In this document: positions 1,713-29,049 of the stretch, piece after piece | Numbering within the stretch: the first letter of the stretch is position 1 | Layout: each line of letters opens with the position of its first letter | NCBI GenBank assembly: GCA_005808665.1 | Contig: SYLG01000096.1 | Location: 1-64,000 of the forward strand | Source: Planctomycetia bacterium | GTDB lineage: Bacteria; Planctomycetota; Planctomycetia; Gemmatales; Gemmataceae | Direction of reading: 5' to 3' | Length of the DNA stretch: 64,000 nt | Translations under genes and position numbers: made by a program | Notes under the pieces: generated by a model | What the model was told of the DNA's origin: nothing | The model's input: only the letters and a program-made list of their open reading frames with translations | Database searches by the model: none

Positions 1713-4700
1713 TCAGGGAAGTTCCAATTCCCAAACCAATCCATCAGAAAGTCCAATGGCCGCGACGGGTCGGTTTGGCGAAAAGGCTATTGCCCGGATA
1801 CGGGGTTTGTCCGGCCCGAAACTTGGCCTAAGGTCCCAGTGCCTAATTTCTTTTCCCGAGGCAACATCCAAAAGGGAAAGGCGATTGTCAGCCGACGCCA
1901 CTAGGATTTTCGTGCCATCACTTTTCAGGGCGAAAGCAGATAGATCTTTTCCCGGAGGAGGCAAGGTGTGGATTTTTTTGCGTTCGGTGGTATTCCAGAG
2001 GGTGATGCGTCCAGCTTTGTCCGAGGTGGCAAGAATGGAATTGCCCTTTGAAAGAGCCAGATCGGCAATGGCTTCGGTTTGGGGGCGAAGGTCCAGTTCG
2101 GGGATCCTCTTGCCGGTTTGAATTTGCCAAAAACGAACTGTCCCATCGTCCGCCCCGGTGGCTATTAGGGAGGCATCCGGGGCTAGGGTGAGGCTTCTCA
2201 CGGTGCCAAGAGCTGGGTCTTGTAGCTGCATCTTTTCAATACGCTTGGAGGCATCAAAGGGGATTTTCGCCATACTTGCCGGGGGAATCCAGGCCATAAG
2301 TGTCTTGCCCACCGTGGAATAACCCAATAGAGGGATCTCTGCAGGGGGTTTTTCTCCATTCATGGAGCGAATTAACTTGCCCGAAGGGACTTCAACTATG
2401 CTGAGGGTTTGGTTTTGGGTTACGACTGCAAGGGTCGGCTCGGGGCCTAGCCAAGTCAGGGCATTGATGGGTTCGGTGAGACCCAAAAGCCTGATTGGAG
2501 GTATCAAGCCTTTTGTGGTATCGCTTGTTTTTCCTTCCGACCAAATAATCAGGTCGCCGTCCGCTCCGGCCGAGGCCAGCCATTTTCCCGAAGCGTCATA
2601 GCCAAGGGCTTTGATTTCGCGGCTGTGACCAGCCTGGACGGGGCCATCCTGGCGGTCAGGCAAATCCCAGGTTCGCAATTGCCCATCCACAGATCCGGAT
2701 AGGAGCAAATTGGCGGTTGGATGGAACGCAAGTGAGGTAACCCAATCCGTATGTCCGCGAAAACTCAACCTTTCCAACTTGGCCGAAGTCAAGCCGTCTC
2801 TGGGGGTGTCCCAAAGCCGAATGATGCGATCTGCACCTCCTACGGCAATCGTTTGGCCGGACGGGGAAAAGGCAATTGCCGAAAGAGCCCCTTTGGTACC
2901 AGACAGGGACACTTGCGAGGAGGTTGGCTGGCCCATGGGGGAGGTTGTCCAATTCCACAAAATCGCCCGCTGATCATTGCCGCACGAAGCCAACCGGTCC
3001 CCTTGGGGATCAAAAACCAAACCCGTTACTGCCCCTTGGTGGCCACCCAGGAGCATGGGAGGGTTTTTGAAGGAAAAATCGAACAATCGAATCACTCCGT
3101 CCCCCCCTCCAATGGCCAGCAAGGAACCAGCTCCATTGATGGCAACCGCCAGAGGCATCCCCACGGTTTGTTCAAGCGAATGGATCAGCTTGCCGGTTGT
3201 CACATCCCATATTTTGATGGTCCTGTCTGCCGAGCTGCTGGCAAGGAATTTCCCATTAGGGCCAAAGGTCAGGGCAGTAATGGTTCCGTCGTGTCCTTCA
3301 AGGATATTGGGTTGAGCTTGGTCGGGGTGAAAAAGGCGAATTTTGCGATCGACCCCTCCTACCGCCATGATTCGATGGTCAGGGGAACTTGCCACGACCG
3401 AGATAGGACCGGTGTCCTTGCCCAAGGGAAGGGGTTGAGCCAAACCGTTCGTGTTGAATAGAATTGGGCCATTTTTCGCTCCGCCTACCAAGACACGATT
3501 TCCATTATGGGCAAAAGCAACCGACCAGATTTCCCCTACGGAGGCATTGGCTATTTGGCCGGTGGACCGATGTTCCAATTCGCGGGTTCGTAAAGCCATG
3601 TCCGTTCCTGCAATGACCAGCCATGAAGCATCCGGACCCAAGGCAACTGCCCGATAGGGGTCACCATAATGTTGGGTTCTGAGGGTTTGGCCTGTTTGAG
3701 GGTCGATTAGCCTCAGGGTTCCGTCCTGCGATCCCGCCAGGATGAACTTACTCCCCGGTGATTGTTGCAAAAATTGGACGGCCTTTGGAAAAGGTTCGAG
3801 GTTTTTGACCTCCGCACCGGTTTGTGCATCGACCAATTTGAGTTGATTTGGATTGGCACCCGCCACCGCCAGTTGTTTGCCTTCCGCCACAAAACAGATT
3901 CCATAAGCATTGCCACCCGTAAACAAGGCCTGTTCGAGAACAGTTTTTCCGGTTTCCACCTCAAAAACCCAAGCTTTGCAGTCTGCGGAGGCTGCGGCAA
4001 TCCGTTTGCCATCCGGGCTATAGGCGATCTGGTGAATGGTCAGGGCCGGTCCGCTTAATTCCTTGGGCCCGGTTCGAGTCAATGGAGTGTGGATGCGGAT
4101 TTTGCGGTCCGCTCCGGCCGCAGCAAACTGGGCACCCCCTGGGTGATAGGCTATGCTGTTGATTGGCTCTGCATGACCGGCTTGGCGATCGACAATTTTT
4201 CCATCCCCCAGGCCCCAAGTGAGGATAAGGTCGTCCTTGCCCCCTCCACTTAGCCGGATGCCCGAGGGATGAAATGCCAGTGCTTGAACCTCATTGCCAA
4301 GGCCTGCCAATCGAAGCAACGGTTTGGCCGAGGGCATCTCCCAAACCAGGACGGTTCCATCTTTGAGCCCAGCCGCCAAGCGATTGCCCTTGGCATCCAC
4401 TGCCAAGGCGGTTGCCGATTCCGGGATTCGAAGGCGTGGGTCCCCAAAGACTCGACCCAAATGGGCTGGCCAACCGGGATCGGGAAACCAAATCTGGGAA
4501 CGGGCTTGATTCCATAGGGAACGGGCCTCCATGGGGTTGGTCGATTTTTGGGCGGCCAAAGCCGTTTTTTGGGCGGTCACTTCCCATTGAGGGCCAAAAA
4601 GTTTTTCTGCTCCTCCCTTTTTGGCCTCGGCCATTTCCTTGGCAAAAACCGATCGGAAATCTAGGGGGGGGGAATCCTTGGATTCAGGAAGGGGATTCAT

Positions 4701-4823
4701 CGGCGGAATTTGGCCATGAACCGGGCCAAGGAAACCGGAAAAAGTACAGCAACCCAAAAGGATGAGTCCAGAATACCAGCGGGATGCGAGGGAAAGCCAA
4801 TATCCCCAAGGTTTAGTGCGCAT
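1713..4823 (-). CDS. Large secreted WD40-repeat protein
   Basis: 1036 residues from the ATG at 4823, chosen because AAGGAG sits 8 bases upstream and a signal peptide follows at once (hydrophobic SGLILLGCCTFSGFLG, then VHGQ). An in-frame extension to 5030 has no such support. After a linker with a short Ala/Lys-rich helix, roughly 16 WD40-type blades fill the rest, with recurring GH..I..L.F.P.G..LA.G..D..I..W patterns, enough for at least two propellers. Such proteins are scaffolds for protein contacts; planctomycetes have many. It is the first gene of a probable operon with the dehydrogenase and mutarotase. No enzymatic domain was seen, so its partner is unknown. Confidence 0.85.
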   Translation of the reverse strand: MRTKPWGYWLSLASRWYSGLILLGCCTFSGFLGPVHGQIPPMNPLPESKDSPPLDFRSVFAKEMAEAKKGGAEKLFGPQWEVTAQKTALAAQKSTNPMEARSLWNQARSQIWFPDPGWPAHLGRVFGDPRLRIPESATALAVDAKGNRLAAGLKDGTVLVWEMPSAKPLLRLAGLGNEVQALAFHPSGIRLSGGGKDDLILTWGLGDGKIVDRQAGHAEPINSIAYHPGGAQFAAAGADRKIRIHTPLTRTGPKELSGPALTIHQIAYSPDGKRIAAASADCKAWVFEVETGKTVLEQALFTGGNAYGICFVAEGKQLAVAGANPNQLKLVDAQTGAEVKNLEPFPKAVQFLQQSPGSKFILAGSQDGTLRLIDPQTGQTLRTQHYGDPYRAVALGPDASWLVIAGTDMALRTRELEHRSTGQIANASVGEIWSVAFAHNGNRVLVGGAKNGPILFNTNGLAQPLPLGKDTGPISVVASSPDHRIMAVGGVDRKIRLFHPDQAQPNILEGHDGTITALTFGPNGKFLASSSADRTIKIWDVTTGKLIHSLEQTVGMPLAVAINGAGSLLAIGGGDGVIRLFDFSFKNPPMLLGGHQGAVTGLVFDPQGDRLASCGNDQRAILWNWTTSPMGQPTSSQVSLSGTKGALSAIAFSPSGQTIAVGGADRIIRLWDTPRDGLTSAKLERLSFRGHTDWVTSLAFHPTANLLLSGSVDGQLRTWDLPDRQDGPVQAGHSREIKALGYDASGKWLASAGADGDLIIWSEGKTSDTTKGLIPPIRLLGLTEPINALTWLGPEPTLAVVTQNQTLSIVEVPSGKLIRSMNGEKPPAEIPLLGYSTVGKTLMAWIPPASMAKIPFDASKRIEKMQLQDPALGTVRSLTLAPDASLIATGADDGTVRFWQIQTGKRIPELDLRPQTEAIADLALSKGNSILATSDKAGRITLWNTTERKKIHTLPPPGKDLSAFALKSDGTKILVASADNRLSLLDVASGKEIRHWDLRPSFGPDKPRIRAIAFSPNRPVAAIGLSDGLVWELELP

Positions 4824-5086
4824 GAGCGGTCTCCTTGGGAAAAGTTTATGGGGGGGTGGGGTTGCTGCCGAGGTGAGTTTGTTTCGAAACATTACGGAAT
4901 TCAGTGCTGCGGACGAATTGCTTCCGGGATTGGAATGCCCCTTGGTTGAGTTTGTAACGATACCATTTGGCAAAGGTTCTCTTTTCGGGTCAACTTTTTC
5001 CCAAGAAACCCTTGATTCCAACGAAATCATTGCTTTAGACTTTGTTTTTGAATGAGTGATTTCCCAAGCTATCTAAAGGTGCTTTT

Positions 5087-6022
5087 ATGCGCAAATTGGC
5101 TGTTGTTTGGATGGGATTAATTTTCGTTTGTCAAGGTCTTGGCCAAGCGCCGCTGCCAACGGTTATTCCCGGGTTGGACCAGACAACAACTGTGCCGGTT
5201 CAACCTGCCCGTTTTCAATCCTTGGCAAACCAAGTCTCCCAAGGAATGCCTGTCGAAAGCCTGGATGGAATCTGGCAAATCACAGCCCTTATTGAGGATG
5301 GCACCCAGGCATCCGAGGATCAAATCCGGTTGCGCTATGCGAACAATCGCCTTTTTACCATCAAGGGGCAAACGCTATCGTTTCTCGTTCCGGGTTCACT
5401 GGAACCAAGAGCGATTCTTTTTGTCCTTGATAATAACAAGACCCCCAAGGCAATTGATTTGATCGGGGCGGAAAAAACCGGTGGCAAGGGGATTTATTCC
5501 TTGACGGGCGACACGCTTGTTCTGTGCATTGGTGAACCGGGAATCAATGTCCGCCCTCCCGAGTTTTCCGCCAACAAGGGATCCCCCTACTTGTTGATGA
5601 TGTTGAAAAAACTGCCCGCCCAACCCGCTTTGCTTCAACCGGCACCGAATGCCCCTCCGGTGTTCATGGAGGCTCAAAAACCACCCATTGTTACCAATGA
5701 TGACCAGATTCGGGCTTTATTTGTCGGCACCTGGGGGCATCAGGACGAGGATTACACATACACCTATACCTTTAACCGCGATGGCACTTTTAGCTCGCTT
5801 CGAAGCTACAAACACCAATTCGGGAAAATATTTCACGAGGATGCCCGTTCGTCTGGAACCTGGAAAATCGACCAAGGGGTGATTCTCTCCACAGTCATGA
5901 CTTCTACGGATAAAAAAAATGTAAATCAGGTATTCTCGAATCGCATCCGCACCATATCGCAAAATGAGGTGATTTCCGTGGATCAGTTTGGTAAACTGAG
6001 GCGGGAATGGCGCCTCCCTTGA
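5087..6022 (+). CDS. Secreted TIGR03067-type planctomycete protein
   Basis: 311 residues with an N-terminal signal peptide (MRKLAVVWMGLIFVCQGLGQ). Residues ~55-180 match the lipocalin-like TIGR03067 pattern typical of planctomycetes: ESLDGIWQI, a central IYSLTGDTLVLC and a closing block with Pro-Pro-Glu-Phe. A second barrel-like segment (~205-311) starts with FVGTWGHQDEDY and resembles the same fold, so this may be a tandem of two small beta-barrels. Function of the family is not known. It is transcribed divergently from the WD40 gene and separated from the next gene by 190 bases that contain a hairpin. Confidence 0.75.
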   Translation: MRKLAVVWMGLIFVCQGLGQAPLPTVIPGLDQTTTVPVQPARFQSLANQVSQGMPVESLDGIWQITALIEDGTQASEDQIRLRYANNRLFTIKGQTLSFLVPGSLEPRAILFVLDNNKTPKAIDLIGAEKTGGKGIYSLTGDTLVLCIGEPGINVRPPEFSANKGSPYLLMMLKKLPAQPALLQPAPNAPPVFMEAQKPPIVTNDDQIRALFVGTWGHQDEDYTYTYTFNRDGTFSSLRSYKHQFGKIFHEDARSSGTWKIDQGVILSTVMTSTDKKNVNQVFSNRIRTISQNEVISVDQFGKLRREWRLP

Positions 6023-6119
6023 TTAAGGAGTCGGTTATTTTTGACGGGGGGGTGTTTTAACCATGGTCCATGGGAACGATTTCTGAAAATTTTTCGTGCC
6101 ATGGGATGGAGTCAATAGG

Positions 6120-6169
6120 CAGGTTGGGCACCTCCGGATGGGTACGGAATTGGCCCATTTCCCAACCTG
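6120..6169. repeat. Hairpin-forming inverted repeat upstream of the NHL gene
   Basis: CAGGTTGGG (6120-6128) and CCCAACCTG (6161-6169) form a perfect 9-bp stem around a 32-base loop, 44 bases before the NHL protein start. No T-run follows, so it is not a standard terminator. It could be a 5' leader structure or a long operator. Coincidence cannot be excluded. Confidence 0.4.
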
Positions 6170-6212
6170 TATCCTCTAGGATGAGGAATTCGGCCCTATG
6201 TTCGAGGTTGCC

Positions 6213-7250
6213 ATGTCGCGATTCATCCTGTTTTTATTTGGAATGATTCTGTTTTGTGGTCCTCTCCATGGACAATCCGAGGGAAGGGTAGTCATCGTGG
6301 CTGAGGGCGGCCCATTGATCAAGGCCCCCTTTGGCCTCGATTTTCTCCCCAATGGCGATGCTGTTTTTGCGGACTATGGCTCCCACAGAATTCTTCGCAT
6401 TGATGGCCACGGGCAAGTTTCCCTGATTGCTGGTTCCGGGCAGAAAGGTGCCCTGAATGGCGTGGGAGACCGGGCCTCGTTCAATGCACCACACAATCTC
6501 TGCATTGGTCCTGAGGGGACCCTTTTTGTGGCCGATACATTCAATCATCTGGTTCGTGAGGTGAATCCAAAAACCGGTGAGGTCACGACATTTGCCGGGA
6601 CCACCAAAGGTTTTTCGGGGGACGGAGGCCACGCTGCCCAAGCCCAATTCAACGAGACCTACCATGTTGCAAAGGATGGAAAGGAGGGCTTAATTGTGGT
6701 TGATTTGATAAACAGGCGCATTCGGCGAATTGACCTCAAAACAAAAGTTGTCTCAACCCTTGTGGGAACGGGGGTAAAGGCCCCGTTTGTCGAGGGAAGC
6801 CAAGCGAAGGAAACCCATTTATTCGATCCAAGGGCAGCGGCACGAGGGCCGGATGGATCGCTTTGGATCCTGGAGCGTGGGGGAAATATTCTCCGAAAAA
6901 GGGATGGGCAAGGTAGGGTCTTTAACATTGCCGGAACAGGCAAAGTGGGTCCAGTCGCCAATGGGCCGGCGGATAAGGCAACCCTGAAAAGTCCGAAGTA
7001 CCTTTGGGTGAACCACGACAACTCGGTGTTGATTGCTGACTCGGCAAATGAGGCGGTGCGGCTGTTGGACAAACAGCATCAAACCCTGACAACGGTTATT
7101 GGCACTGGCAAAGGAGGAAAAGGCCCTGCGGGGGGGAATCCACTTTTGACTGAACTACGCCATCCTCACGGAGTGGCGGTAGATGCCCAAGGGCGCATTT
7201 GGATTTCAGACAGTGAAAACAAACGCATATTGCGAATAGATCCAAAGTAG
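6213..7250 (+). CDS. Secreted NHL-repeat beta-propeller protein
   Basis: 345 residues from the ATG at 6213 (GAGG five bases upstream, clean signal peptide MSRFILFLFGMILF then GPLHGQ); an ATG at 6198 is an alternative. At least five NHL repeats can be read, with the usual P.G.....G.....ADTFNH..R pattern: GLDFLPNGDAVFADYGSHRI, LCIGPEGTLFVADTFNHLV and VAVDAQGRIWISDSENKRI. NHL propellers bind ligands or act as scaffolds; some are lyases, but no catalytic signature stands out. It probably acts outside the cytoplasm. It stands alone between a hairpin-bearing spacer and the convergent hydroxyproline operon. Confidence 0.8.
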   Translation: MSRFILFLFGMILFCGPLHGQSEGRVVIVAEGGPLIKAPFGLDFLPNGDAVFADYGSHRILRIDGHGQVSLIAGSGQKGALNGVGDRASFNAPHNLCIGPEGTLFVADTFNHLVREVNPKTGEVTTFAGTTKGFSGDGGHAAQAQFNETYHVAKDGKEGLIVVDLINRRIRRIDLKTKVVSTLVGTGVKAPFVEGSQAKETHLFDPRAAARGPDGSLWILERGGNILRKRDGQGRVFNIAGTGKVGPVANGPADKATLKSPKYLWVNHDNSVLIADSANEAVRLLDKQHQTLTTVIGTGKGGKGPAGGNPLLTELRHPHGVAVDAQGRIWISDSENKRILRIDPK

Positions 7251-7459: not shown

Positions 7460-9043
7460 TTATTCAGGCAGGTCCTTGTTCCAGGTGCCGTTGACCAACC
7501 GGAACAATCCAAGCGGATTGGATTCTTTCAATTCTTCCGGAAGAAGGCATTCCGGGAAGTTTTGCCAGCACATTGGCCGGGTAAACCGGGTAATGGCCCG
7601 GGTCCCAACGGAGGTGCTGCGGCCATCGGCGGATGCAGGGTAAGGCCCGCCATGATTCATGGCATGGCAAACTTCCACGCCGGTGGGGAAACCGTTGTGA
7701 ACCAACCGACCCACTTTTCCTGCAAGGATGGGATAAAGGATTTTGATTTGTGGGTTGTCCTCTGGACCGGCATGAATCGTTCCGGTGAGTTGTCCATCCA
7801 AAGCCTTGACAACCTCGATTATCTCTTCGATTCCGTTGCAAAGTACAGCAATGGTAGTTGGGCCGAAAAGTTCTTCAAGGAGGGCGGGTTGGCCCAGGAA
7901 ATCCTGGCCCGAGGTGGTCAGGAGGGTTGGACCCACCTGGCCATTGGTAACATCTACCCTGGTGTGAACTTTGATTTCAGGTAACTCAGTGAACTTGGCC
8001 AGCCCGGCAATAAATTCATGGCAGATGGATTCTGTGAGCATGGCAGCGGGAATGACTTTAGCCAATTCCGATCCAAGTTGTTGGAGAAAAATATCCGATT
8101 GGGATCCTGCTTCCAGAATAATCAACCCGGGATTGGTGCAAAACTGGCCATTGCCCAAAGTGACGGAGCCGGCAAGACCAACCGCCAGGCTTTGCGAACG
8201 ATCTACCAAGGCTCCGGGCAGGATTACCATGGGGTTGATGCTGCCCATTTCTGCATAAACGGGAATCGGTTGCTTCCTGGCGGCGGCGGCGTCCATCAGG
8301 GCCCGGCCCCCCGAACGGGATCCTGTAAAACCAACGGCTTGAATCGCCGGGTGAGTGACAAGGTCGATTCCCACGGTTCGCCCGGGGCCAAACAAAAGCG
8401 AGAAAGTGCCCTCGGGCAGGCCGGATTGGCGGACCGCGTCAACGATGAGGGTACCAACCAATTCCGAGGTCGCCAGGTGCCCTTGGTGGGCTTTCACAAT
8501 GACTGGGCATCCCGCAGCAAAGGCGGAGGCGGTATCGCCACCTGCCACTGAAAAAGCCAGGGGGAAATTGCTGGAGCTGAACACGGCCACCGGCCCCAAG
8601 GGAACAAGCATGGACCTGACATCGGGTTTGGGAACGGGCTTACGGGTGGGGTCGGCGTGATCGACTCGAACATCGCGCCACCATCCTTCTTCGACAAGCT
8701 TGGCGAAAAGGCGAAGCTGGCCGGTGGTCCGACCAATTTCGCCTTGAATGCGGCCTGCTGGGAGGGCGGTTTCCCGGGTAGCCAATTCGATGATTCGGGC
8801 GGAGTTATCTTCAATGCCTTTGGCGATCAATTGGAGGAAATCGGACTTGGGTTTGTGACCAAGTGCTGCCAAAACCGGAGCGGCGTCCTTCGCCTTTTGG
8901 ATAGCGCTGGAAACTTCCTCAGGGCGAGCCCAAGTAAATTCCGGGCCAAAAAACTCCCGCTTATTGGGGTCATAGGGTCTGGCCCCGCCACCCACCTGAC
9001 CGCGGGCGAAGCCAATCAAAGAGACCCCCATAATACTGTTCAT
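7460..9043 (-). CDS. 2,5-dioxopentanoate (ketoglutarate semialdehyde) dehydrogenase
   Basis: 527-residue aldehyde dehydrogenase. It has the long glycine-rich N-terminal segment and the catalytic cysteine context GNGQFCTNPGL that characterise NAD(P)-dependent 2-oxoglutarate semialdehyde dehydrogenases; the cofactor-site segment FSSSNFPLAFSVAGGD and the general-base glutamate region YAEMGSINP are also present. In hydroxyproline degradation this enzyme performs the last step, giving 2-oxoglutarate. It is the last gene of the minus-strand cluster, 131 bases after the DapA-like deaminase gene. The start at 9043 has AGGA upstream; Met at 9031 is possible. Function is well supported by the family plus its neighbours. 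Confidence 0.88.
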   Translation of the reverse strand: MNSIMGVSLIGFARGQVGGGARPYDPNKREFFGPEFTWARPEEVSSAIQKAKDAAPVLAALGHKPKSDFLQLIAKGIEDNSARIIELATRETALPAGRIQGEIGRTTGQLRLFAKLVEEGWWRDVRVDHADPTRKPVPKPDVRSMLVPLGPVAVFSSSNFPLAFSVAGGDTASAFAAGCPVIVKAHQGHLATSELVGTLIVDAVRQSGLPEGTFSLLFGPGRTVGIDLVTHPAIQAVGFTGSRSGGRALMDAAAARKQPIPVYAEMGSINPMVILPGALVDRSQSLAVGLAGSVTLGNGQFCTNPGLIILEAGSQSDIFLQQLGSELAKVIPAAMLTESICHEFIAGLAKFTELPEIKVHTRVDVTNGQVGPTLLTTSGQDFLGQPALLEELFGPTTIAVLCNGIEEIIEVVKALDGQLTGTIHAGPEDNPQIKILYPILAGKVGRLVHNGFPTGVEVCHAMNHGGPYPASADGRSTSVGTRAITRFTRPMCWQNFPECLLPEELKESNPLGLFRLVNGTWNKDLPE

Positions 9044-9174
9044 GTGCGAAATTTCCTATCTGTCAGGTTGGAATGGATCCGGCAAAATCTTGATAAAAAT
9101 CTCCCTGGTATAAACACCAAGTCAGGATTACCCAGCTATTTTCCAAAGTTTGGATCGGATTGCCATGGCCAACC

Positions 9175-10068
9175 CTATAGTTCTGGTCTTTGGGCAAGGT
9201 GCTGAAGAATTATGGATTGAGCTTCGGCTCGTTCCTGACCGGCAAGAACCAGCCTTGGTGCCCTTACTCTTTCGGAACCCATTCCCACTTCCTGTTGGGC
9301 AAGTTTTATCAATTGGACAAACTTAACCACAACATCCATACGCAATAGAGGCAAAAACCAACGGTAAAGGTCAAACGCCTTGGCCTTGTCCCCCTTCATG
9401 GCCAAGTCAAACAGGGCCACCGATTCTTTCGGAAATGCGTTGACCAATCCCGCAATCCACCCGGTAGCACCCGCTTCGATCCCCTCCACAATCATGTCGT
9501 CAACGCCGACAAGGAGTGCCAGGCGATCGCCGATTTCGCTTTTGATGGCAGCCAAACGCCGGACATCGGCACTGGATTCCTTGACAGCATGGAGGTTCGC
9601 ATGATCCCGGGCCAGTTCTGCTATCTGGCTTGGGAGATAGTCTGTTTTGTAGGCAATCGGATTGTTGTAAAGCATACACGAAAGTGGCGTGGCGGAGATG
9701 ACCTGATCGACATGGGATTTCATCTCTCTCCAATCGGTGGAATAAACATAGGGTGGCAAAACCATCAAACCTTGGCAACCAGCCTTATGGGCGGCCCGGG
9801 CAATTTGGACAGCCTCGGCGGTTGAAAGGGCAGCAACCCCAGCCACAACAGGGGCCCGCTTTCCAAGGGCATTGACACAAGTAGTCAAGACTTCGCTTTT
9901 TTCCGTTAAGGAAAGGGTAGACCCCTCGCCGAGGGATCCCAAGGCAACAATACCTTGGCAGCCATTGTCGATAAGCCAGTTTGTGTGTTTGCCCAATAAG
10001 ACATGATCGACCGAACCGCTTTCGGTAAAGGGAGTGGTCATTGCCGGAATAACGCCTTGCCAATTCAT
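9175..10068 (-). CDS. DapA-family deaminase/aldolase, probable 1-pyrroline-4-hydroxy-2-carboxylate deaminase
   Basis: 297 residues, a complete class I DapA/NanA (beta/alpha)8 barrel. It shows the N-terminal MTTPFTESG, the GSLGEGSTL substrate loop, the tyrosine motif LYNNPIAY and the Schiff-base lysine in LHAVKESSAD. In hydroxyproline catabolism a member of this family deaminates and dehydrates pyrroline-4-hydroxy-2-carboxylate to ketoglutarate semialdehyde, which fits the neighbouring dehydrogenase exactly. Its ATG overlaps the upstream stop by 4 bases (ATGA), implying translational coupling. Other activities of this superfamily are possible in isolation; the assignment rests on the operon. 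Confidence 0.82.
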   Translation of the reverse strand: MNWQGVIPAMTTPFTESGSVDHVLLGKHTNWLIDNGCQGIVALGSLGEGSTLSLTEKSEVLTTCVNALGKRAPVVAGVAALSTAEAVQIARAAHKAGCQGLMVLPPYVYSTDWREMKSHVDQVISATPLSCMLYNNPIAYKTDYLPSQIAELARDHANLHAVKESSADVRRLAAIKSEIGDRLALLVGVDDMIVEGIEAGATGWIAGLVNAFPKESVALFDLAMKGDKAKAFDLYRWFLPLLRMDVVVKFVQLIKLAQQEVGMGSERVRAPRLVLAGQERAEAQSIILQHLAQRPEL

Positions 10069-11348
10069 GATTCCTGATTCTCCGATTGGTACATTTGAAA
10101 AAGGGCCTGTGCGGAAAGGGGTTGGAATGGCGGTCGGGGAAAGTCCGGCTCAAAGCCATAAAGGGCCTTGGCGGCAGGCCCGCACACCTTTCCCTGGCAA
10201 GGCCCCATACCCAACCTCGTTTGGAGCTTGGCCTCCCGCCAGCAACTCATGGGTTTAATTTTCCCATGGGGTATATCTTCGCAACGGCAGACGATTGTGT
10301 CCTCCCTGATTTGATCCAATAATTCGGATCTTGGCGAAAATGTCGCATCCAGCAGTTGGACAAATCGTTCCCACCTGGGCAGGGCGGCCGATTGATGGTG
10401 GGAAAGCTCCCTTTGGCCAGCCGCAGCTAGTCCGGCTACAATTCCCTGAGCAATGGCCCGTTCCGCTCCACCCACTCCGGTGCATTCGCCAATGGCGTAA
10501 AGGTGTGATCGGGAAGTTTGACCCAAGGAATCGACCTTGACCCGATCCTTTTCAATGGTGCATCCAGCCATTCTGGCCAAGTCGATGTTGGGGATCAGAT
10601 GGCAACCGGTTGCCAGGTAATCGCACTCCATTCGCCAGGATTTCTTGCCATTGGTCATTTGGACCCATTCCAACCGACCCTCCCCCCCAGCCTGTTGGAC
10701 CCATGTTCCAACCGGGGAGGAAACTTTCCAAAGTTTGGCAAGGTAGCCAAGGGCCTCGAAGGCTTTTTCCGGATAGGCCGGAAGATGGGCGGTGAAATTG
10801 GCCAGCTTGGCAAACGAAGCCTGCTCCGCCAGGAGAAGGAGTTTCCCTTTGGCTTTTTGAACGGACCTGGCCACGGGGTACATGAGTGGTCCACTGCCCG
10901 CAATCACCACCCGTTTATTGGCAACGCAAAGCCCGGTTTTTATCATGGCCTGTAACCCACCCATTCCCACAACCCCAGGCAAGGTCCAACCCGGAAACGG
11001 AATCCACCGTTCCCGAGCTCCGGTTGCAAGGACAAGATCGTTTCCCAGGCAAATTTGGGTTTCCCCATTGGGTGATTGAAACACAACCCCTGGCTTTTGT
11101 GGCAACACATCAAGGACTTGGCCTTGCTTTCGATGAATGTTGGGCAATGACATACCGTCCAGCCAGTATTTCGCCAGTCCATTGGTTGACCCCGACCGCC
11201 AAATCTGACCTCCCGAGGTTGACATTTCATCCAAAACCAGGCATTGTTCCGAAGGGTCGGCATAGCGTGCAAATGTTACGGCAGCGGCAATGGCGGCTGG
11301 CCCGGAACCAACAATCAAGAGGCTGGCCCGTTTCGGTTCCCCACTCAT
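10065..11348 (-). CDS. FAD/NAD(P)-binding subunit of D-hydroxyproline dehydrogenase-like complex
   Basis: About 427 residues from the ATG at 11348, which overlaps the stop of the 2Fe-2S gene by 4 bases; the longer open frame to 11438 runs through that gene and is not needed. An N-terminal FAD dinucleotide site (LIVGSGPAAIAAAV) and a second nucleotide site (VVIAGSGPLMYPVA) are followed by a C-terminal BFD-like iron-sulfur segment with cysteines in VCRCED and GMGPCQGKVCG. This is the HcnB/OoxA/LhpE-type electron-transfer subunit found beside a DadA-like catalytic subunit and a small ferredoxin-like subunit. In this operon it should shuttle electrons from D-hydroxyproline oxidation to a respiratory acceptor. 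Confidence 0.82.
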   Translation of the reverse strand: MSGEPKRASLLIVGSGPAAIAAAVTFARYADPSEQCLVLDEMSTSGGQIWRSGSTNGLAKYWLDGMSLPNIHRKQGQVLDVLPQKPGVVFQSPNGETQICLGNDLVLATGARERWIPFPGWTLPGVVGMGGLQAMIKTGLCVANKRVVIAGSGPLMYPVARSVQKAKGKLLLLAEQASFAKLANFTAHLPAYPEKAFEALGYLAKLWKVSSPVGTWVQQAGGEGRLEWVQMTNGKKSWRMECDYLATGCHLIPNIDLARMAGCTIEKDRVKVDSLGQTSRSHLYAIGECTGVGGAERAIAQGIVAGLAAAGQRELSHHQSAALPRWERFVQLLDATFSPRSELLDQIREDTIVCRCEDIPHGKIKPMSCWREAKLQTRLGMGPCQGKVCGPAAKALYGFEPDFPRPPFQPLSAQALFQMYQSENQES

Positions 11349-11605
11349 GGAAGCGGCACCGTTTCGACAACCATTCCCTGACGGACTGTTATCATGCAGG
11401 ACCGTTGATGGAACAACCCGTCGATGGTAACAGTGCATTCATGGCAAAAGCCCATTCCACAAAGGGGGCCTCTTGGCTGGCCGGTGACCGAGGTTCGGGT
11501 AGTCCCAAAACCGGCATTGAAAACTGCTGAAAGAAGGGTGTGGCCAACGGGCACCGAAACTGGCCTTCCATTCAATTCGATATTAACCCGCTGGGGATCG
11601 CTCAT
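11345..11605 (-). CDS. Small 2Fe-2S subunit of D-hydroxyproline dehydrogenase-like complex
   Basis: 86 residues, the size of HcnA/OoxA-type (2Fe-2S) subunits. It contains RVNIELNGRPVSVPVGHTLLS at the start and cysteines in GPLCGMGFCHECTVTIDG, plus a later RSCMITVRQG, the arrangement of the N-terminal ferredoxin-like domain of these dehydrogenases. The start overlaps the upstream DadA-like gene by 4 bases (ATGA) and its stop overlaps the next gene in the same way, so the three subunits are translated as a unit. The small subunit would carry electrons between the two flavin subunits. Confidence 0.85.
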   Translation of the reverse strand: MSDPQRVNIELNGRPVSVPVGHTLLSAVFNAGFGTTRTSVTGQPRGPLCGMGFCHECTVTIDGLFHQRSCMITVRQGMVVETVPLP

Positions 11606-12753
11606 GGAATCGGCCCCTTTTGCAGGGAAAACCGCAAAGGCTCATAGGGCTCCCATGGAATGGAAGGAGTATTACCCACCAGGCGATCGGCCAAAATGCG
11701 GGCTGTTCCAAGCGAAGTGGTGATGCCAAGCCCTTCATGGCCGGTCGCCAACCAGACACCCTCCATGGGCCTACCCGTTACCGGGTTGGGAGCGGGGCCG
11801 ATGAGGGGAACTTTGTCTGGTGTGGCCGCCCGAAACCCAGTCCACACCCGCAGACAAAGTAGATCCTTTAAATGCGGTAAATACCAAAAGGCCCGCTCCA
11901 GCATTTTTGCCGTGATGGATTTCTCAATCCGACTATCCAAAGCACCATATTGCCTCGATGATCCGATAAGCAGTTGACCGGTGCGCCTTGGCTGGACATT
12001 AAATGCCACGGTATCCTGGGTCAATTGGTGGGCATTTTTCAGGTAGCCCAGTTCAATCAGTTGGTGGCGGATATGGCCAGGGTAGCGATCTGTTATGATT
12101 AAATGTCCTTTGCGGGGTTTCAAGGCGATTCCCGGAACCAATTTCGTGGCATTGGCCCCCGTTGCTACCACCACAGTCCGGGCACAAAGGCGATCCCCGT
12201 TTTCGAAAACAACGATTCCCCCTTCATGGACTTCCCGGACTGCTTGCCCTTTTTGAAATTTGGATCCTTTATGGATGGCTTGATCAAGTAACCAGGCTGC
12301 GGCGGTGGGGGGATAAATCACCGCATCGCCTTTAACCCGGAGACCGCCTGAAAGGCCAGGCCTGAGGTTGGGTTCATATTCGTAGAGTTTTCTGCCGGTA
12401 ACAACTTCGGAGACAATTCCGGCATTGCTGTAAATATGGGATTTGCGTTCGACCTCCGCCATTTCCTCATGATCAGCGGCAACCCACATGGTTCCACAGG
12501 CATCATATTCCACAGAGCCGGGCAAATCGGGTTGCAATTCTTTCCATAACGCACAGGAAAGTTGGGTTAAGGCAATTTGGGCGGGGGAATCGTCCATCAC
12601 TACAAGATGGCCCATACCTGCTCCTGTGGCCCCACCCCCAACCATGTGGGATTCTACCACCAAAGTCGAAAGTCCTACCCGAGCACACTCCAAAGCACAG
12701 GCCACACCGACAATTCCCGCACCAATGATTAGAACATCGGCACCCGGCTTCAC
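11602..12753 (-). CDS. DadA-like FAD oxidoreductase, catalytic subunit of D-hydroxyproline dehydrogenase
   Basis: About 383 residues from GTG at 12753, whose GTGA overlap with the epimerase stop and GGGGA eight bases upstream favour it over TTG codons further out. The Rossmann FAD site ADVLIIGAGIVGVACALECA lies at the very start, and the C-terminus has the DAO-family pattern VWTGFRAATPDKVPLIGPAP followed by GVWLATGHEGLGITTSLG. Enzymes of this kind oxidise D-amino acids; with an epimerase gene immediately upstream the expected substrate is cis-4-hydroxy-D-proline, giving pyrroline-4-hydroxy-2-carboxylate. The substrate comes from context, and D-proline or a related imino acid cannot be ruled out. 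Confidence 0.85.
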   Translation of the reverse strand: MKPGADVLIIGAGIVGVACALECARVGLSTLVVESHMVGGGATGAGMGHLVVMDDSPAQIALTQLSCALWKELQPDLPGSVEYDACGTMWVAADHEEMAEVERKSHIYSNAGIVSEVVTGRKLYEYEPNLRPGLSGGLRVKGDAVIYPPTAAAWLLDQAIHKGSKFQKGQAVREVHEGGIVVFENGDRLCARTVVVATGANATKLVPGIALKPRKGHLIITDRYPGHIRHQLIELGYLKNAHQLTQDTVAFNVQPRRTGQLLIGSSRQYGALDSRIEKSITAKMLERAFWYLPHLKDLLCLRVWTGFRAATPDKVPLIGPAPNPVTGRPMEGVWLATGHEGLGITTSLGTARILADRLVGNTPSIPWEPYEPLRFSLQKGPIP

Positions 12754-13682
12754 TGGCGGATTCCCCAACAAAATGGATCGTTATCATCTAATAAAAGTGT
12801 GGTTTCACCAGTAATCCAAGCTCTCCCGGTGATGGTGGGTACCACCTGGTGGCCCAACTTCCGGTATCGTGATTGAAAACTTGTCCCCAGGATTCCCTCC
12901 TGGGTCCAGGTTTCACCTTCGCCCAGTTCGCCGTTTTCCGCAAGACAGGCGATCTTGGCGCTGGTTCCGGTTCCGCATGGGGAGCGATCGTAGGCCCGGC
13001 CCGGACAGAGGACAAAATTCCGCCCACTTCCTCCACGATTTTGGGCGGGTCCAAAAAGCTCGACATGATCCACTTCGGGAAAGCCCTGCATATTCAAGGC
13101 TTTACGGATAGCCCAGGCACGACTGGTAAGTTCATCGACATAAGAGATCTTCAAAGGTATGTCGTGAATCGGCGTGAGGAAAAACCAATTCCCGCCCCAG
13201 GCGACATCGCCACAAACCTGGCCCACACCGGGTACCTCGACAACCACATCCGCTGCTTTTCGGTAGCTAGGAACATTGGTCAGGGTTACACTGGAATCAG
13301 GGTGAAGTTGCGCTGTAATTCGGCCAACGGGCGTTTCTATGTGATGAAAGCCCTGACTGATTCGGCCCAAAAATTCCAAAGCGGCAATCACTCCAATCAT
13401 GCCATGGCCACACATTCCCAGGTAGCCTACATTGTTGAAAAATATTACGGACGCCGAAGAACCTGGATCGATGGGATGGCGCACCAGGGCCCCTACCATG
13501 ACATCGCTCCCTCTTGGTTCATTGACGATTGCCGAGCGAAATCCATCGTGATGACTGCGAAATCGGTCAAGTGCCAGGGTCGCATTGAGTTGTCCCAAAT
13601 CGGGGCCGCCACGGATTACCACCCGGGTGGGCTCCCCGGCGGTGTGCGTGTCAATGGCTTCAATGCGTTTAGCGGTTTGCAT
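12750..13682 (-). CDS. 4-hydroxyproline 2-epimerase (proline racemase family)
   Basis: 310 residues of the proline racemase fold. Both catalytic cysteines are visible: Cys91 in LGMCGHGMIG and Cys236 in SPCGTGTSAK. A Thr in place of the first cysteine would instead have suggested trans-3-hydroxyproline dehydratase. The start segment IEAIDTHTAGEPTRVV is typical. The enzyme converts trans-4-hydroxy-L-proline to cis-4-hydroxy-D-proline, the first step of bacterial hydroxyproline breakdown. It lies 20 bases after the aminopeptidase P gene and overlaps the dehydrogenase gene by 4 bases. Proline racemase activity is an alternative, but the neighbouring pathway genes point to hydroxyproline. Confidence 0.9.
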   Translation of the reverse strand: MQTAKRIEAIDTHTAGEPTRVVIRGGPDLGQLNATLALDRFRSHHDGFRSAIVNEPRGSDVMVGALVRHPIDPGSSASVIFFNNVGYLGMCGHGMIGVIAALEFLGRISQGFHHIETPVGRITAQLHPDSSVTLTNVPSYRKAADVVVEVPGVGQVCGDVAWGGNWFFLTPIHDIPLKISYVDELTSRAWAIRKALNMQGFPEVDHVELFGPAQNRGGSGRNFVLCPGRAYDRSPCGTGTSAKIACLAENGELGEGETWTQEGILGTSFQSRYRKLGHQVVPTITGRAWITGETTLLLDDNDPFCWGIRQ

Positions 13683-13702
13683 GAAAGGGACCCGGGGGCT
13701 GT

Positions 13703-15004
13703 TCAGGAGCGGGATCGCCCGGAGTGGATGAGATCCTCCAAATGTTCCGCTTCCACCGGGATTTCTGCCATCAAGTCCAACGGGCTTCCGCTGGTTACGA
13801 GAATGTTATTTTCAATGCGCACGCCAAAACCCTCATCGGGAATGTAGATACCAGGCTCAACCGTAAGGACCCAGCCGGCAGCAAAAGGTCGGTTCATGGG
13901 GCCCACATCATGAACATCCAGGCCCAGGACATGGCCCAGGCCGTGCATGAAGTATTTGCGCCCCGCATATTCTTCCGGGGATTCGGCCTGGATTTCCGCC
14001 CGGGAAATCAGGCCTAATCCCAATAGTTCCTCGTTCATCAAGGCCTTTGCCTCAAGTACCCAATCCCGGTGAAGCTTGCCTACCGTGGCGTTTTGAATGG
14101 ATTGCTTCATTACCCGTAGCACCGCATTGTAGACGAGCTTTTGCCGGGGAGTGAACCTGCCCGATACTGGGATTGTCCGGGTAAGGTCCGCATTGTAGTT
14201 GGCATAGGAAGCTCCCACATCGAGCAGGAGCAAATCTCCCTCCACCAAGGGTCGGTCGTTTTCATTGTAATGCAGGATACACGAGTTAGCCCCACCCGCA
14301 ATGATCGGGTTATAAGCAAACTTGCAACGATTGCGAATAAACTCATGGGCAAACTCGGCCTCGATCTCGTGCTCAAACATCCCCGGCCGAACCAGGCCAC
14401 AGACCCTTTCGAAACCCGCTTTGGTCACCCGGATCGCTCGTTTGAGTAGCTCAATTTCTTCAGGTTGTTTCTCCACCCGGAGGGCGTGCATTAACTTTGA
14501 CAGACGGCCGTACGAGTGAAGCGGATACCGATCCTGGCATTCCCGGACAAAGCGGGCGTCGCGGGTTTGGGACTCGACCACCGCACGGGGATGGGCATTC
14601 TCATTGAGCCAAACCATTTCCGCCTCGCACATCATGGCATGAAATGTTTTGGAAAACTCGGATAGCCATTTGATGGTTTTGATCCCGGATATTTCCCTGG
14701 CGAGGTCCTTGGTAAGCTTGTGCCCTTCCCAAATCCTGAGTAGTTCGTTGGGTTCGCGAATGAAAAGTACTTCCCTTAAAAGCGGGTCATGCGCCGTAGG
14801 GAAAAGGACAAGGATGGTTTCCTCCTGTTCGACCCCGCTCAGGTAAAACAGGTCACTGTTGGGAACGAGGGTTAGGTTGCCATCCGCATTGGTGGGAAGA
14901 ATATCATTGGCCCCAACGACGGCCAAGGCATTTGGGCCCAATTGGGCGGCAAGTCGGCCACGGTTTGACTCGAAAAAGGAAGGATCAATCCGGTCATGGC
15001 GCAT
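13703..15004 (-). CDS. pepP: Xaa-Pro aminopeptidase (aminopeptidase P)
   Basis: 433 residues. The N-terminal creatinase-like domain is followed by an M24 metallopeptidase domain with all expected metal ligands: LLLDVGASYANYNADLTRT (two Asp), HGLGHVLGLDVHD (His), VEPGIYIP (Glu) and FGVRIENNILVT (Glu). It removes an N-terminal residue when the second residue is proline; the operon suggests it also handles hydroxyproline peptides. It is the first gene of the hydroxyproline operon, which makes sense if the cell lives on collagen- or plant-wall-like peptides. Two direct repeats lie just upstream of the start. Confidence 0.9.
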   Translation of the reverse strand: MRHDRIDPSFFESNRGRLAAQLGPNALAVVGANDILPTNADGNLTLVPNSDLFYLSGVEQEETILVLFPTAHDPLLREVLFIREPNELLRIWEGHKLTKDLAREISGIKTIKWLSEFSKTFHAMMCEAEMVWLNENAHPRAVVESQTRDARFVRECQDRYPLHSYGRLSKLMHALRVEKQPEEIELLKRAIRVTKAGFERVCGLVRPGMFEHEIEAEFAHEFIRNRCKFAYNPIIAGGANSCILHYNENDRPLVEGDLLLLDVGASYANYNADLTRTIPVSGRFTPRQKLVYNAVLRVMKQSIQNATVGKLHRDWVLEAKALMNEELLGLGLISRAEIQAESPEEYAGRKYFMHGLGHVLGLDVHDVGPMNRPFAAGWVLTVEPGIYIPDEGFGVRIENNILVTSGSPLDLMAEIPVEAEHLEDLIHSGRSRS

Positions 15005-15249: not shown

Positions 15250-18200
15250 ATGAGGTTGAACGCTTTTTATTGGAGGCCTTTTGATTTCATTGCCCAGGTT
15301 GGCCTGGGGTTCCTGATAATCCCCTTCCTTAATTCCACCGAGCCACCCATTTCCCAAGCCCGAGTGGTCCCGGAATACCAAAACCAAATCGCTCCCCTTC
15401 TCAAAAATCGCTGTGTTCGCTGTCACGGGCCCGCCAAGCAGGATGGCAAATTAAACCTTGCTCTTGGGGCGGGATTGGTTCGGGGTGGAAAAAACGGAAA
15501 AATAATCCAACCGGGCAGCCCGGATTCAAGCCTCCTTTGGCAGCATGTTTCCGACAATTCCATGCCCAAAGGGGAGCCACCCTTAACCCCCCTCGAAAAA
15601 GGACTGATTCGTCAATGGATTGAATCAGGAGCTCACGGCCTCCCTTTAACGGTTTCGGCCTTGCCCGATGGGGATGAACATTGGGCCTATCAGAAAGGGA
15701 AGCCAGTCAGTCTCCCCGCTGTAAAAAACAAGGCACGGATTCGGACTCCCATAGATGTGTTTCTCCAAGCCAGACTGGAAAAGAAAGGGTTGACCCTTTT
15801 GCCTGACGCCACCAAATACGCTCTCATTCGTCGGGTATCATTTGCATTGTGTGGCCTTCCCCCCAGTCTAAAGGAAACGGAAAAGTACCTCAAGGATCAA
15901 AGTCCCAAAGCCTATGAAACCATGGTGGAAGGCTATTTGTCCTCGCCACAATATGGTGAGCGTTGGGGAAAATTCTGGCTGGATGCGGCGGGTTATGCCG
16001 ACTCCAACGGGTTTTTTAATGCAGACACGGATCGACCCCTTGCATGGCGGTATCGCGATTTTGTGGTTGATACCATCAATAAGGATCTACCCTTTGACCA
16101 ATTCCTCCGGGAACAACTTGCTGGTGATGAGATCGCCCGATATTCTCCAAAGACTCCCCTTTCTTCCGAGGGAATCCGGTTGCTTACCGCCACCCATTAC
16201 CTGCGAAACAGCCCGGACGGAACGGATAGCAGTGATGGGAATGAGGACGAAGTCCGGGCTGACAAATATGCCGTTTTGGAGGGTACGGTTCAAATCATGG
16301 GTTCCTCCCTTTTCGGAATCACCTTTCAATGTGCCCGTTGCCACAACCACAAATTCGAACCGGTTTCCCAAGCCGATTATTATCGGCTGCAGGCGATTCT
16401 TTATCCTGCGTTTAATGTGGAAAAATGGGCCTATCCAAGAAATCGCGATATCGTAGCGGCCACCGCTTCGGAAATCGAAACACACAAAGCTGCCTTGAGC
16501 CAACATGAGGAAAAGCTGGCGAAGGTCAAAAACCTCCAAAGGGAATGGATGCAGAAAAATCCTGAGCCCAGAACGGTTTTATTCCAAGACGATTTCGACT
16601 TGAAAAACCAGACGGTCCAAATGCTTTGGTCAACATCGGCTCCGGGGGATGATGCCCCATTGGGCCTCCCCCTTGTGCAGTTGGATTCCCAAAAAGGGCC
16701 TGCGGTGAATATCACCTCAGGAGGCCTGCATGTGGTGGAATCGGGGGCTTTGGGTGACAGGGCCATTTCCACAAAGCAATCCTTTGACTGGACGCCGGAC
16801 AAAAAAGGGGATTGGATCCAGGTTCGGTTTGACCTGGTCAGGGGAGCACCCTATGTGGGGTTTCTGATCGCCCTTGGAGATTATAACGACAAAAAGGACA
16901 AACATAAGGGCAATATCCTTTTTGATGGGGCCGAGTCGGGCCAGGCAAAGGTCTATGTGGATTACCCTGGACCCGATGGCAGTCAACCTGGGGCCATTGG
17001 GGAAAGTGGCTACAAACCTGGTAAAAGATATGGTGTTCGGGTAACAAATCGGGGCAAAGGGGCGTTTGAATTGACTCAATGGGTGGAGGGAAACCCTGAA
17101 AAAAACACCCTGACCCTTAAAGAATCCGATTTGCCCAATGGCGGGTTTGGCTTCGCCCTTTGTTGTGGGCGCAGTTATGTTGTTGACAATGTGGTGGTGG
17201 AGAAGAGTCTGGATGCGTTGGAGGCCGCCAAAATTCCAGCGGTCACCCGGGACCTCCGTCAAGCCAGAATGGCTGAATTTTCCAAAATGATCCAGGATCT
17301 CGAAAAGGCAAAACCGGTTCCTCTTACCAAACTCGCCCCCGTGGTGGACCTTTCGCCCCTGGTTCCAGGCGTTTTCATTCTGGAACGGGGAATCCACAAA
17401 GCGCGTGGGGAAAAGGTCAACCCGGGACCGCCTTCGGCTTTGCTGGAATCGGACAAAACCGACCCCTTTGGTCCTAAACCTTTTGATCTGACGCAATCCA
17501 CGGGGAGCCGTTTCGCTTTGGCCCAGTGGATCACCAAACCCAAGACCCGCGCATCTTCCTTGTTGGCAAGAGTAACGGTCAATCGGTGGTGGCACAACCA
17601 TTTTGGCAGGGGAATTGCCTCAACGGTGGATAACCTTGGTTATTCAGGTAGCCCTCCTTCCCATCCTGAATTGTTGGAATGGTTGGCAGGAGAATTGGCC
17701 CAAAATGGCTGGAGCCAAAAATACATCCACCGACTTATCCTTCATTCGACTGCCTTTCGCCAATCCGGCACACCCACCAAAGAGTCCCTATTGGCCGATG
17801 AGGACAACACACTCCATTCCCGTTTTCCCCTAAGGCGGCTTGATGCCGAATCGCTTCGGGATGGGATGCTTTTCCTTTCCGGCGAATTGGACCTGGTTCA
17901 GGGTGGACCCTATGTTCCCACCTCACGGGGGGGTGATGGAGAGGTAATTGTTCCGGAAGCCTCTTCAGGAGCCAAAAGGCGAAGTATCTACCTTCAGCAA
18001 AGGCGAACCCAAACGATGGGGATGCTTGAGATTTTTGATGCCCCATCCATTGTTTTTAATTGTACGGTAAGGCTTCCCACCACCGTACCGCTTCAATCGC
18101 TGATCCTGCTTAATTCCCCATTTGCGAGGCTTCGATCGGAGGCGTTTGCCAAAAGGCTGTTAAATGAATTTCCGGAAGATTGGAACGCCCGGTTGGGCCA

Positions 18201-18375
18201 AGCCTTTTTGCTGGTTTGGGGGAGGTCCCCTTCACCCGGGGAGGAATCAGCCGCAAAGGAATTTCTTTTGGCTCAATCCAGGGAATACACTGGGAAGCCG
18301 AATTCGGAGGTCAGGACCTGGACCGATTTGGCCAATATGCTATTGGCCTCAAACGCCTTTTTGTATGTGGAGTGA
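15250..18375 (+). CDS. PSCyt1-DUF1549-DUF1553 cytochrome-like protein with inserted LamG-like domain
   Basis: 1041 residues with an N-terminal signal sequence. The planctomycete cytochrome module has a haem motif CVRCH at residues 55-59, DUF1549 follows at ~165-385 with a second CARCH at 361-365, and DUF1553 occupies the last third (GSRFALAQWITKPK..., RRLDAESLRDGML). Between these halves, at about 440-655, lies a beta-rich insert that starts TVLFQDDF and resembles DUF1080/LamG sugar-binding folds. Such proteins are exported and occur with DUF1501 partners, as here (gene 70 bases downstream). Their chemistry is still unclear; redox attack on sugars or sulfated glycans has been suggested for the family, but nothing here proves it. 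Confidence 0.88.
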   Translation: MRLNAFYWRPFDFIAQVGLGFLIIPFLNSTEPPISQARVVPEYQNQIAPLLKNRCVRCHGPAKQDGKLNLALGAGLVRGGKNGKIIQPGSPDSSLLWQHVSDNSMPKGEPPLTPLEKGLIRQWIESGAHGLPLTVSALPDGDEHWAYQKGKPVSLPAVKNKARIRTPIDVFLQARLEKKGLTLLPDATKYALIRRVSFALCGLPPSLKETEKYLKDQSPKAYETMVEGYLSSPQYGERWGKFWLDAAGYADSNGFFNADTDRPLAWRYRDFVVDTINKDLPFDQFLREQLAGDEIARYSPKTPLSSEGIRLLTATHYLRNSPDGTDSSDGNEDEVRADKYAVLEGTVQIMGSSLFGITFQCARCHNHKFEPVSQADYYRLQAILYPAFNVEKWAYPRNRDIVAATASEIETHKAALSQHEEKLAKVKNLQREWMQKNPEPRTVLFQDDFDLKNQTVQMLWSTSAPGDDAPLGLPLVQLDSQKGPAVNITSGGLHVVESGALGDRAISTKQSFDWTPDKKGDWIQVRFDLVRGAPYVGFLIALGDYNDKKDKHKGNILFDGAESGQAKVYVDYPGPDGSQPGAIGESGYKPGKRYGVRVTNRGKGAFELTQWVEGNPEKNTLTLKESDLPNGGFGFALCCGRSYVVDNVVVEKSLDALEAAKIPAVTRDLRQARMAEFSKMIQDLEKAKPVPLTKLAPVVDLSPLVPGVFILERGIHKARGEKVNPGPPSALLESDKTDPFGPKPFDLTQSTGSRFALAQWITKPKTRASSLLARVTVNRWWHNHFGRGIASTVDNLGYSGSPPSHPELLEWLAGELAQNGWSQKYIHRLILHSTAFRQSGTPTKESLLADEDNTLHSRFPLRRLDAESLRDGMLFLSGELDLVQGGPYVPTSRGGDGEVIVPEASSGAKRRSIYLQQRRTQTMGMLEIFDAPSIVFNCTVRLPTTVPLQSLILLNSPFARLRSEAFAKRLLNEFPEDWNARLGQAFLLVWGRSPSPGEESAAKEFLLAQSREYTGKPNSEVRTWTDLANMLLASNAFLYVE

Positions 18376-18444
18376 CATGGGAGGATTTGTGCGGTTGGGG
18401 TACAATGGCATTACGGTTTCTTGTAAGGGGAAATGGTGGTCCTT

Positions 18445-23386: not shown

Positions 23387-23424
23387 TGGTGCGGTTTTCC
23401 CTTTACCTTTTCCTGTCCAAACCC

Positions 23425-24306: not shown

Positions 24307-24338
24307 GATGTTTCCTGTTTCAAAGGGGGGTAGCACAT

Positions 24339-25229: not shown

Positions 25230-25338
25230 CGTTTGAATCTCTCTGCACTACATGAGCCGGAAAGGTCAGTCTATCCCATCCGGAAAACGGGGCCATGACC
25301 ATGGAGACCATTGCCTTCGTTCGCCAAAAATCAAAAAC

Positions 25339-26649: not shown

Positions 26650-26883
26650 TGGTTTTTGGTTCGACTTGGGTGGGATGGTGGGAAACCTTTCCTGTGGTTT
26701 AGCAATCCTTGGGTCAAAGTCCTGCTTAAAAGGTCGTTTCCCAAAGCAAATTGTGGCCTTGCACCGGCCAAAGGATCCGATCCCCCTGGTTGGGCCAAAA
26801 TCAAACAGTGTCATTTGGGAAAGGTGCTTGGGAAAGGAGGCATAGCCCTCGACAAAAGGAAACCTGCCCTTAACGGAAAGGAG

Positions 26884-28017: not shown

Positions 28018-28074
28018 CCTCCACACTCCTTAAAGGGGTAGGGTCATTCAATATCCTGGTTTAACGCCCGGTCC

Positions 28075-28851: not shown

Positions 28852-29049
28852 GGGAAAGGGCCCCTGGAGGAAAAGGTGGGTCTGGAGAAAGGATACCGTC
28901 AAATCGTGGCCCATCAAGGTAACCCGCAAAAGGCAAAGGCAAATCCAGCTGAAAAAGGAGGCTCAATACCTGGGCCTACACCGCCTCCATAGGATAGTCC
29001 GGGTCAGGTGGATAAAGGACCCGCTTCGCTTTTTCGAGGTTACCCATTC

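Follow-up and report, generated by a model that had tools for sequence, protein, structure and literature searches.

It has been reported that the genes for degradation of hydroxyproline (Hyp) in Streptomyces coelicolor (SCO6289-6293) and Pseudomonas aeruginosa (the lhp cluster) comprise an epimerase, the DAO-type, Fer2_4 and FAD subunits of a dehydrogenase and a DHDPS-family deaminase, and that S. coelicolor loses growth on L-Hyp upon knock-out of the epimerase (PMC6608401). Sinorhizobium meliloti employs the same reaction series (HypRE, HypO, HypD, as told in PMC6608401) but oxidises D-Hyp by HypO, for which that paper reports no significant homology to the three-subunit enzyme. Furthermore, DAAO, DHDPS and ALDH genes have been found to surround the genes of 4-hydroxyproline epimerases (4HypE; PMC4113996). 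Accounts of Hyp utilisation mostly concern the free amino acid. In the literature on a link between peptidases and Hyp, the sole case that we found is the collagen cluster of Colwellia BB5, which unites an M9 collagenase, two proline peptidases (the YpdF aminopeptidase and PepQ; a hydroxyproline dipeptidase is also named), prolyl isomerases and transporters with the 4-hydroxyproline epimerase and the downstream Hyp genes (PMC7883544). No title or abstract opening in that search, which mostly did not cover subscription papers, concerned a Hyp operon headed by pepP in Planctomycetota or Verrucomicrobiota. Here we describe such an operon at positions 7460-15004 of a 64,000-nucleotide stretch of DNA (hereafter the window: positions 1 to 64,000 of contig SYLG01000096.1, assembly GCA_005808665.1) from a planctomycete of the family Gemmataceae. 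We assign a probability of about 0.85 to the reading that this operon serves the use of trans-4-hydroxy-L-proline as a carbon and nitrogen source, PepP being most likely a feeding route from imported short peptides.

The seven genes all face the same way (minus strand, starting at 15004 and ending at 7460), in the order pepP, epimerase, DadA/DAO-type subunit, 2Fe-2S subunit, FAD/NAD(P) subunit, deaminase and ALDH. Four of the six junctions are 4-base overlaps, one GTGA and three ATGA (Table 1), and the gene order, span and overlaps given in the first-pass annotation are thus all present. The Hyp pathway is very likely encoded here. The epimerase would convert trans-4-hydroxy-L-proline to cis-4-hydroxy-D-proline, which a three-subunit flavin/iron-sulfur dehydrogenase would oxidise to delta1-pyrroline-4-hydroxy-2-carboxylate; the DHDPS-family deaminase would then yield alpha-ketoglutaric semialdehyde, and the ALDH would convert the latter to alpha-ketoglutarate. 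The adjacent DAO, Fer2_4 and FAD/NAD(P) genes are the signature of a heterotrimeric D-hydroxyproline dehydrogenase of the LhpB/E/F type, and the best, albeit below the cut-off, NCBIfam match of the FAD/NAD(P) subunit is the soxA family TIGR01372, which is also given for SCO6291 (PMC6608401). The gene content, the epimerase residues described below and the match to the S. coelicolor cluster all agree with the earlier identification of a hydroxyproline operon. Two differences from S. coelicolor, as described in PMC6608401, stand out: no ALDH gene is located near that operon whereas ALDH is the last gene of the operon described here, and the HypR table includes a secreted M9 collagenase but no pepP, which is the first gene here.

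Table 1. Genes of the operon in the direction of transcription, with the evidence for each and the junction with the following gene
Gene and predicted product	Position	Strand	Evidence	Junction with next gene
pepP, Xaa-Pro aminopeptidase (AMP_N + Peptidase_M24), 433 aa, first gene	13703..15004	-	Pfam PF05195 + PF00557 above cut-off	20-base gap
lhpA-type 4-hydroxyproline 2-epimerase, 310 aa	12750..13682	-	PF05544 E 1e-89	4-base overlap, GTGA
D-hydroxyproline dehydrogenase DadA/DAO-type subunit (beta/LhpB type), 383 aa from GTG	11602..12753	-	DAO PF01266 E 3e-64	4-base overlap, ATGA
D-hydroxyproline dehydrogenase 2Fe-2S subunit (gamma/LhpF type), 86 aa	11345..11605	-	Fer2_4 PF13510 E 2e-23	4-base overlap, ATGA
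D-hydroxyproline dehydrogenase FAD/NAD(P) subunit (alpha/LhpE type), 427 aa	10065..11348	-	Pyr_redox_2 PF07992 E 6e-18	4-base overlap, ATGA
DHDPS-family deaminase	9175..10068	-	PF00701 E 1e-60	131-base gap
Alpha-ketoglutaric semialdehyde dehydrogenase (ALDH), 527 aa, last gene	7460..9043	-	PF00171 E 9e-44	

The epimerase contains both catalytic cysteines, C91 and C236, within MCGH and SPCGTG motifs, respectively. The residues that separate hydroxyproline epimerases from proline racemases (PMC4364671) are of the HypE type at sites 1 (V63, i.e., not Phe), 4 (H206, His) and 5 (C226, Cys/Tyr). The spacings between H206, C226 and C236 (20 and 10) equal those between L221, W241 and C251 of TlProR, whereas site 1 was located by a spacing of 28 residues, as derived from V60 in the P. 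aeruginosa HypE and Cys88 in a HypE of P. protegens, so the assignment of V63 is less sure. The nearest solved structures include 4juu, 4jci, 2azp and 4j9w, among which 2AZP has been named a 4HypE (PMC4113996) and 4J9X, the listed sequence of which is identical to that of 4j9w, has been named a HypE (PMC4364671). The closest structures to the ALDH are 3v4c (E 2e-131) and 1eyy (E 6e-122). In a quick tree of the 80 best-scoring DHDPS sequences, the deaminase clusters with proteins from other Hyp loci of Acidobacteriota and Verrucomicrobiota (support of 87 for the fork that includes the window), apart from the usual form of the family (support of 100 for the split). Among 79 Hyp loci other than that of the sister genome described below (L032), many of which are interrupted by contig ends, seven have the six genes from the epimerase to ALDH on one strand in the same order, with ALDH last (L052 and L059 from Myxococcus, L061 from HR10, and L079, L084, L091 and L106 from Acidobacteriota). 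The operon is in this respect ordinary and belongs to a known kind. Many other Gemmataceae (e.g., L012, L023 and L025) arrange the Hyp locus differently: the gene directly before the epimerase encodes a DHDPS protein that belongs to another clade (43-50% identity).

The overlap between the epimerase and DadA genes requires a GTG start at 12753, and the list of open reading frames (ORFs) opens DadA at TTG 12771; because the homologous codon in L032 is ATG, we take GTG 12753 as the start. The NCBIfam families of this subunit are the same whether the start is placed at 12753 or at 12759, the latter having been used in the Pfam scan. The strong coupling proposed earlier would apply to the four overlaps, which are found in L032 as well, but the ALDH gene is not overlapped and is therefore expected to be more weakly coupled. 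Promoter-like sites (5 found vs. 5.1 in shuffled sequences) and terminator-like sites (8 vs. 12.5) show no excess.

A second genome of the same genus (G069, a Gemmataceae metagenome-assembled genome from Baikal) carries the same seven genes with the same four overlaps, and the two remaining junctions in L032 are 21 and 131 bases wide. The proteins are 78-93% identical to those of the window, and the ratio of nonsynonymous to synonymous substitution rates (dN/dS) is 0.05-0.18 across all seven genes (0.09 for pepP), indicating purifying selection. The recurrence of the overlaps together with this selection implies that the layout is beyond chance. The flanks of L032 agree with those of the window, namely the NHL-repeat gene at one end and, at the opposite end, contig C78, the terminus of which joins the window at ~15146. 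The third genome of the genus (G070, 90% complete) has neither an epimerase nor an AMP_N match; its copies of two operon-flanking genes lie on separate contigs next to other neighbours, without the operon, so that a clean empty site is not demonstrable. Flanking genes, including PSD1/PSCyt and DUF1501, are common to the window and both sister genomes, which argues against a contaminant contig of verrucomicrobial origin.

PepP matches AMP_N (78 bits) and M24 (176 bits) above the Pfam cut-offs, and its best NCBIfam match is the Xaa-Pro aminopeptidase family NF008131 (248 bits, short of the cut-off of 465). Among solved structures, it aligns over almost its whole length with 3ig4 (E 2e-70) and AMPP 1jaw (E 3e-65). 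D262, D273, H358, E383 and E398 of PepP align with positions of 1jaw that we take to be metal ligands and are invariant in five PepPs. No signal peptide is evident at the N-terminus by eye, so PepP should act on peptides inside the cell. Produced from the same gene run, it would free the residue that precedes Pro or Hyp in imported short peptides; such cleavage would yield Hyp or Hyp-led dipeptides, which other peptidases must finish. The genome of the window (G000) encodes one clear permease of the POT family (PTR2, contig C164; 6 of 14 controls matched) that could import di- and tripeptides. Given this permease and the lack of a match to the SBP_bac_5 peptide-binding protein in a profile search of the same genome (11 of 14 controls matched), di- and tripeptides appear to be the likely imported form. 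The enzyme activities, co-transcription of the operon and peptide use are inferred here from sequence.

Within the family, an AMP_N match was detected in 2 of 95 genomes, those of the window and G069, both of which carry the operon (3 of 14 controls matched), and an epimerase match in 72. Likewise, among the protein matches listed, PepP is matched over its whole length in these two genomes only; the others cover a part of it, with no more than 52% identity. By comparison, PepP is detected at E 1e-100 in 51 of 387 Verrucomicrobiota genomes (at most 64% identical), and in the PepP tree the window genus is placed beside G378 and G482, in both of which the gene is unlinked, within a supported set of Verrucomicrobiota. 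The simplest reading is that at least PepP was transferred from Verrucomicrobiota, and probably the window genus gained both PepP and the present version of the operon from outside the family. Base composition gives no sign of PepP transfer (the G+C content of the operon genes is 52-56%, that of the window 53%), and the epimerase trees, built from the 110 and 63 best-scoring sequences, leave the attachment of the window branch unsettled.

The association of pepP with the epimerase recurs outside the window genus. Among the 387 Verrucomicrobiota genomes, 18 have both PepP (E 1e-100) and the epimerase (E 1e-60), and in two of these (G119 and G361) both genes run in one direction, PepP directly ahead of the epimerase and sharing four bases (ATGA) with its start. 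In 50 genomes (50 of 80 Hyp loci), PepP matches at E 1e-40 were found in 27, of which 12 are close (50-60% identity) and entered the linkage count, the 15 distant ones (29-42%) being left out; two of the 12 lie in the Hyp locus, in G119 and in G128, where PepP is on the opposite strand and its end meets the end of ALDH. In total, PepP is part of the Hyp locus in 3 of 29 distinct genomes with a close PepP and an epimerase. By rough arithmetic, the chance that a random gene falls within 5 kb of another is ~0.2% in a genome of 5 Mb, so that ~0.06 of 29 would be expected. An origin of the linked PepPs as one clade is rejected by the approximately unbiased (AU) test, with p 0.005 for the window genus with G119 and G361 and 0.0017 when G128 is added, for groups chosen after the first PepP tree. 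G361 encodes two PepPs: the gene at L229:8028-9368 is flanked by a DHDPS gene and the epimerase, and the gene at C18:36619-37932 is unlinked. In G097, one of the genomes with a distant PepP, an M24 gene is located ~3.6 kb past the Hyp genes (L036) and was not included among the linked cases. In one Pirellulaceae genome, another M24 peptidase (L038:15117-17503; 31% identity over 215 aa) is convergent to the DHDPS-family gene at the end of a Hyp locus.

Several other explanations have to be weighed. An operon for proline, with a proline racemase and a D-proline dehydrogenase, would accord with the membership of the epimerase in the proline racemase superfamily and with the D-proline dehydrogenase model NF040813, which the DadA subunit weakly matches; we regard it as highly improbable given that sites 1, 4 and 5 carry residues of the HypE type, that the top NCBIfam matches are 4-hydroxyproline epimerases and that known HypE structures are among the top PDB matches, where ProR ranks far lower, and also because proline use needs neither the deaminase nor the semialdehyde dehydrogenase. 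It is unlikely, albeit less so, that the locus serves to attack Hyp-rich structural proteins such as collagen or extensin outside the cell. The Colwellia cluster is a precedent for such a locus, and algal Hyp-rich glycoproteins have been proposed as food of lake bacteria (PMC4454575), but the seven genes of the operon include neither an endopeptidase nor a transporter, PepP (AMP_N + M24) stands alone, apparently without a signal peptide, and a search of the genome of the window gave no M9 collagenase, a weak negative because 0 of 14 controls matched. A collagenase family is also absent from the seven genes and four neighbours (5087-7250 and 15250-19872), so that the locus lacks the hallmark of the Colwellia cluster. 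The suggestion that the organism degrades collagen or extensin-like material is thus not borne out; the Hyp peptides themselves could be derived from algal Hyp-rich glycoproteins or from animal collagen.

The more serious alternative is a housekeeping role for PepP as an Xaa-Pro aminopeptidase, its gene having come to stand beside the Hyp operon by accident, in a neighbourhood without metabolic meaning, and we consider this quite plausible, although somewhat short of even odds. Indeed, of the 51 Verrucomicrobiota genomes in which PepP reaches E 1e-100, 33 lack an epimerase at E 1e-60, and a number of further observations weigh against a dedicated Hyp operon fed by PepP. Of the 72 family genomes in which an epimerase was matched, 70 have no AMP_N match, and there is no M24 gene near the Hyp locus in any of 40 contexts from that set of 72 outside the window genus, some of which stop at contig ends. 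Over 138 Hyp-locus contexts (140 minus two known duplicates, with L032 counted in), many of which also stop at contig ends, an M24 gene is present in seven, one of these being a fragment at the locus edge. The two genes are unlinked, as far as can be judged from the assemblies, in 26 of the 29 Verrucomicrobiota genomes that have both; the window's own genome lacks the SBP_bac_5 match, and neither a transporter nor a regulator is found among the four scanned neighbours. The NCBIfam matches of the epimerase, of which the best is 4-hydroxyproline epimerase (362 bits), fall short of the curated cut-offs (442 and 450). Finally, one clade of linked epimerases is not rejected and is even slightly preferred (p-AU 0.63), the tree in which the window genus, G119 and G361 are constrained to one clade exceeding that of the free quick search by 6.65 log-likelihood units; such a clade would favour fewer linkage events. 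On the other hand, an accidental neighbourhood does not readily account for linkage on PepP branches that do not form one clade, for three linked cases where ~0.06 would be expected, or for the overlap of pepP with the epimerase start in G119 and G361. In the window genus, moreover, PepP is present only where the operon is (two of three genomes, the third having neither), evolves under purifying selection and is encoded 20 bases before lhpA. On balance, a functional link between PepP and Hyp appears somewhat more probable than its absence. The proposal that pepP ties peptide trimming to Hyp use gains indirect support from this co-occurrence and recurrent linkage, but most family genomes with the epimerase do without PepP, which is thus not necessary.

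Given such a link, we suggest, as a tentative and rather doubtful extension, that PepP was recruited more than once across the Planctomycetes-Verrucomicrobia-Chlamydiae (PVC) phyla as an Xaa-Hyp aminopeptidase dedicated to Hyp operons, and that pepP-lhpA pairs mark users of imported Hyp di- and tripeptides, for example, from algal Hyp-rich glycoproteins, over free Hyp. The case for independent recruitment comes solely from the PepP tree because the epimerase trees leave the origin unsettled, and a different history, with an old pepP-lhpA pair that was broken many times and in which PepP was replaced, is possible. If pepP does travel with the Hyp operon, genome sequences alone would identify those freshwater and soil bacteria that take up Hyp in peptide form; the gain is modest because the pathway itself is well known, and we view the locus as an ordinary operon with a modestly interesting peptidase recruitment.

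Several features of the flanking regions are of separate interest. The PSCyt1/PSCyt2/PSD1 protein that adjoins pepP (window 15250-18375) has 82 matches in G069 and 95 in G070, where fragments may count separately, i.e., it belongs to a large paralogue expansion. Between ALDH and the NHL gene of G069 lies a gene (L032:7924-8955) whose start is N-methylation-like, and a 151-base piece is 78% identical to the region of the DUF1559 gene in the window (20027-20175), which hints at a mobile or duplicated gene. A gene group of its own at window positions 21524-30003 encodes two DHDPS-family proteins along with an SASA/S9-type esterase, a PhyH dioxygenase, an MFS transporter, an HGSNAT-like protein and a 3-keto-disaccharide hydrolase, and may serve the catabolism of sugar acids or of sialic-acid-like compounds. 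On the other side of the operon, the window encodes a 1105-aa protein with many WD40-type repeats (1713-5030).

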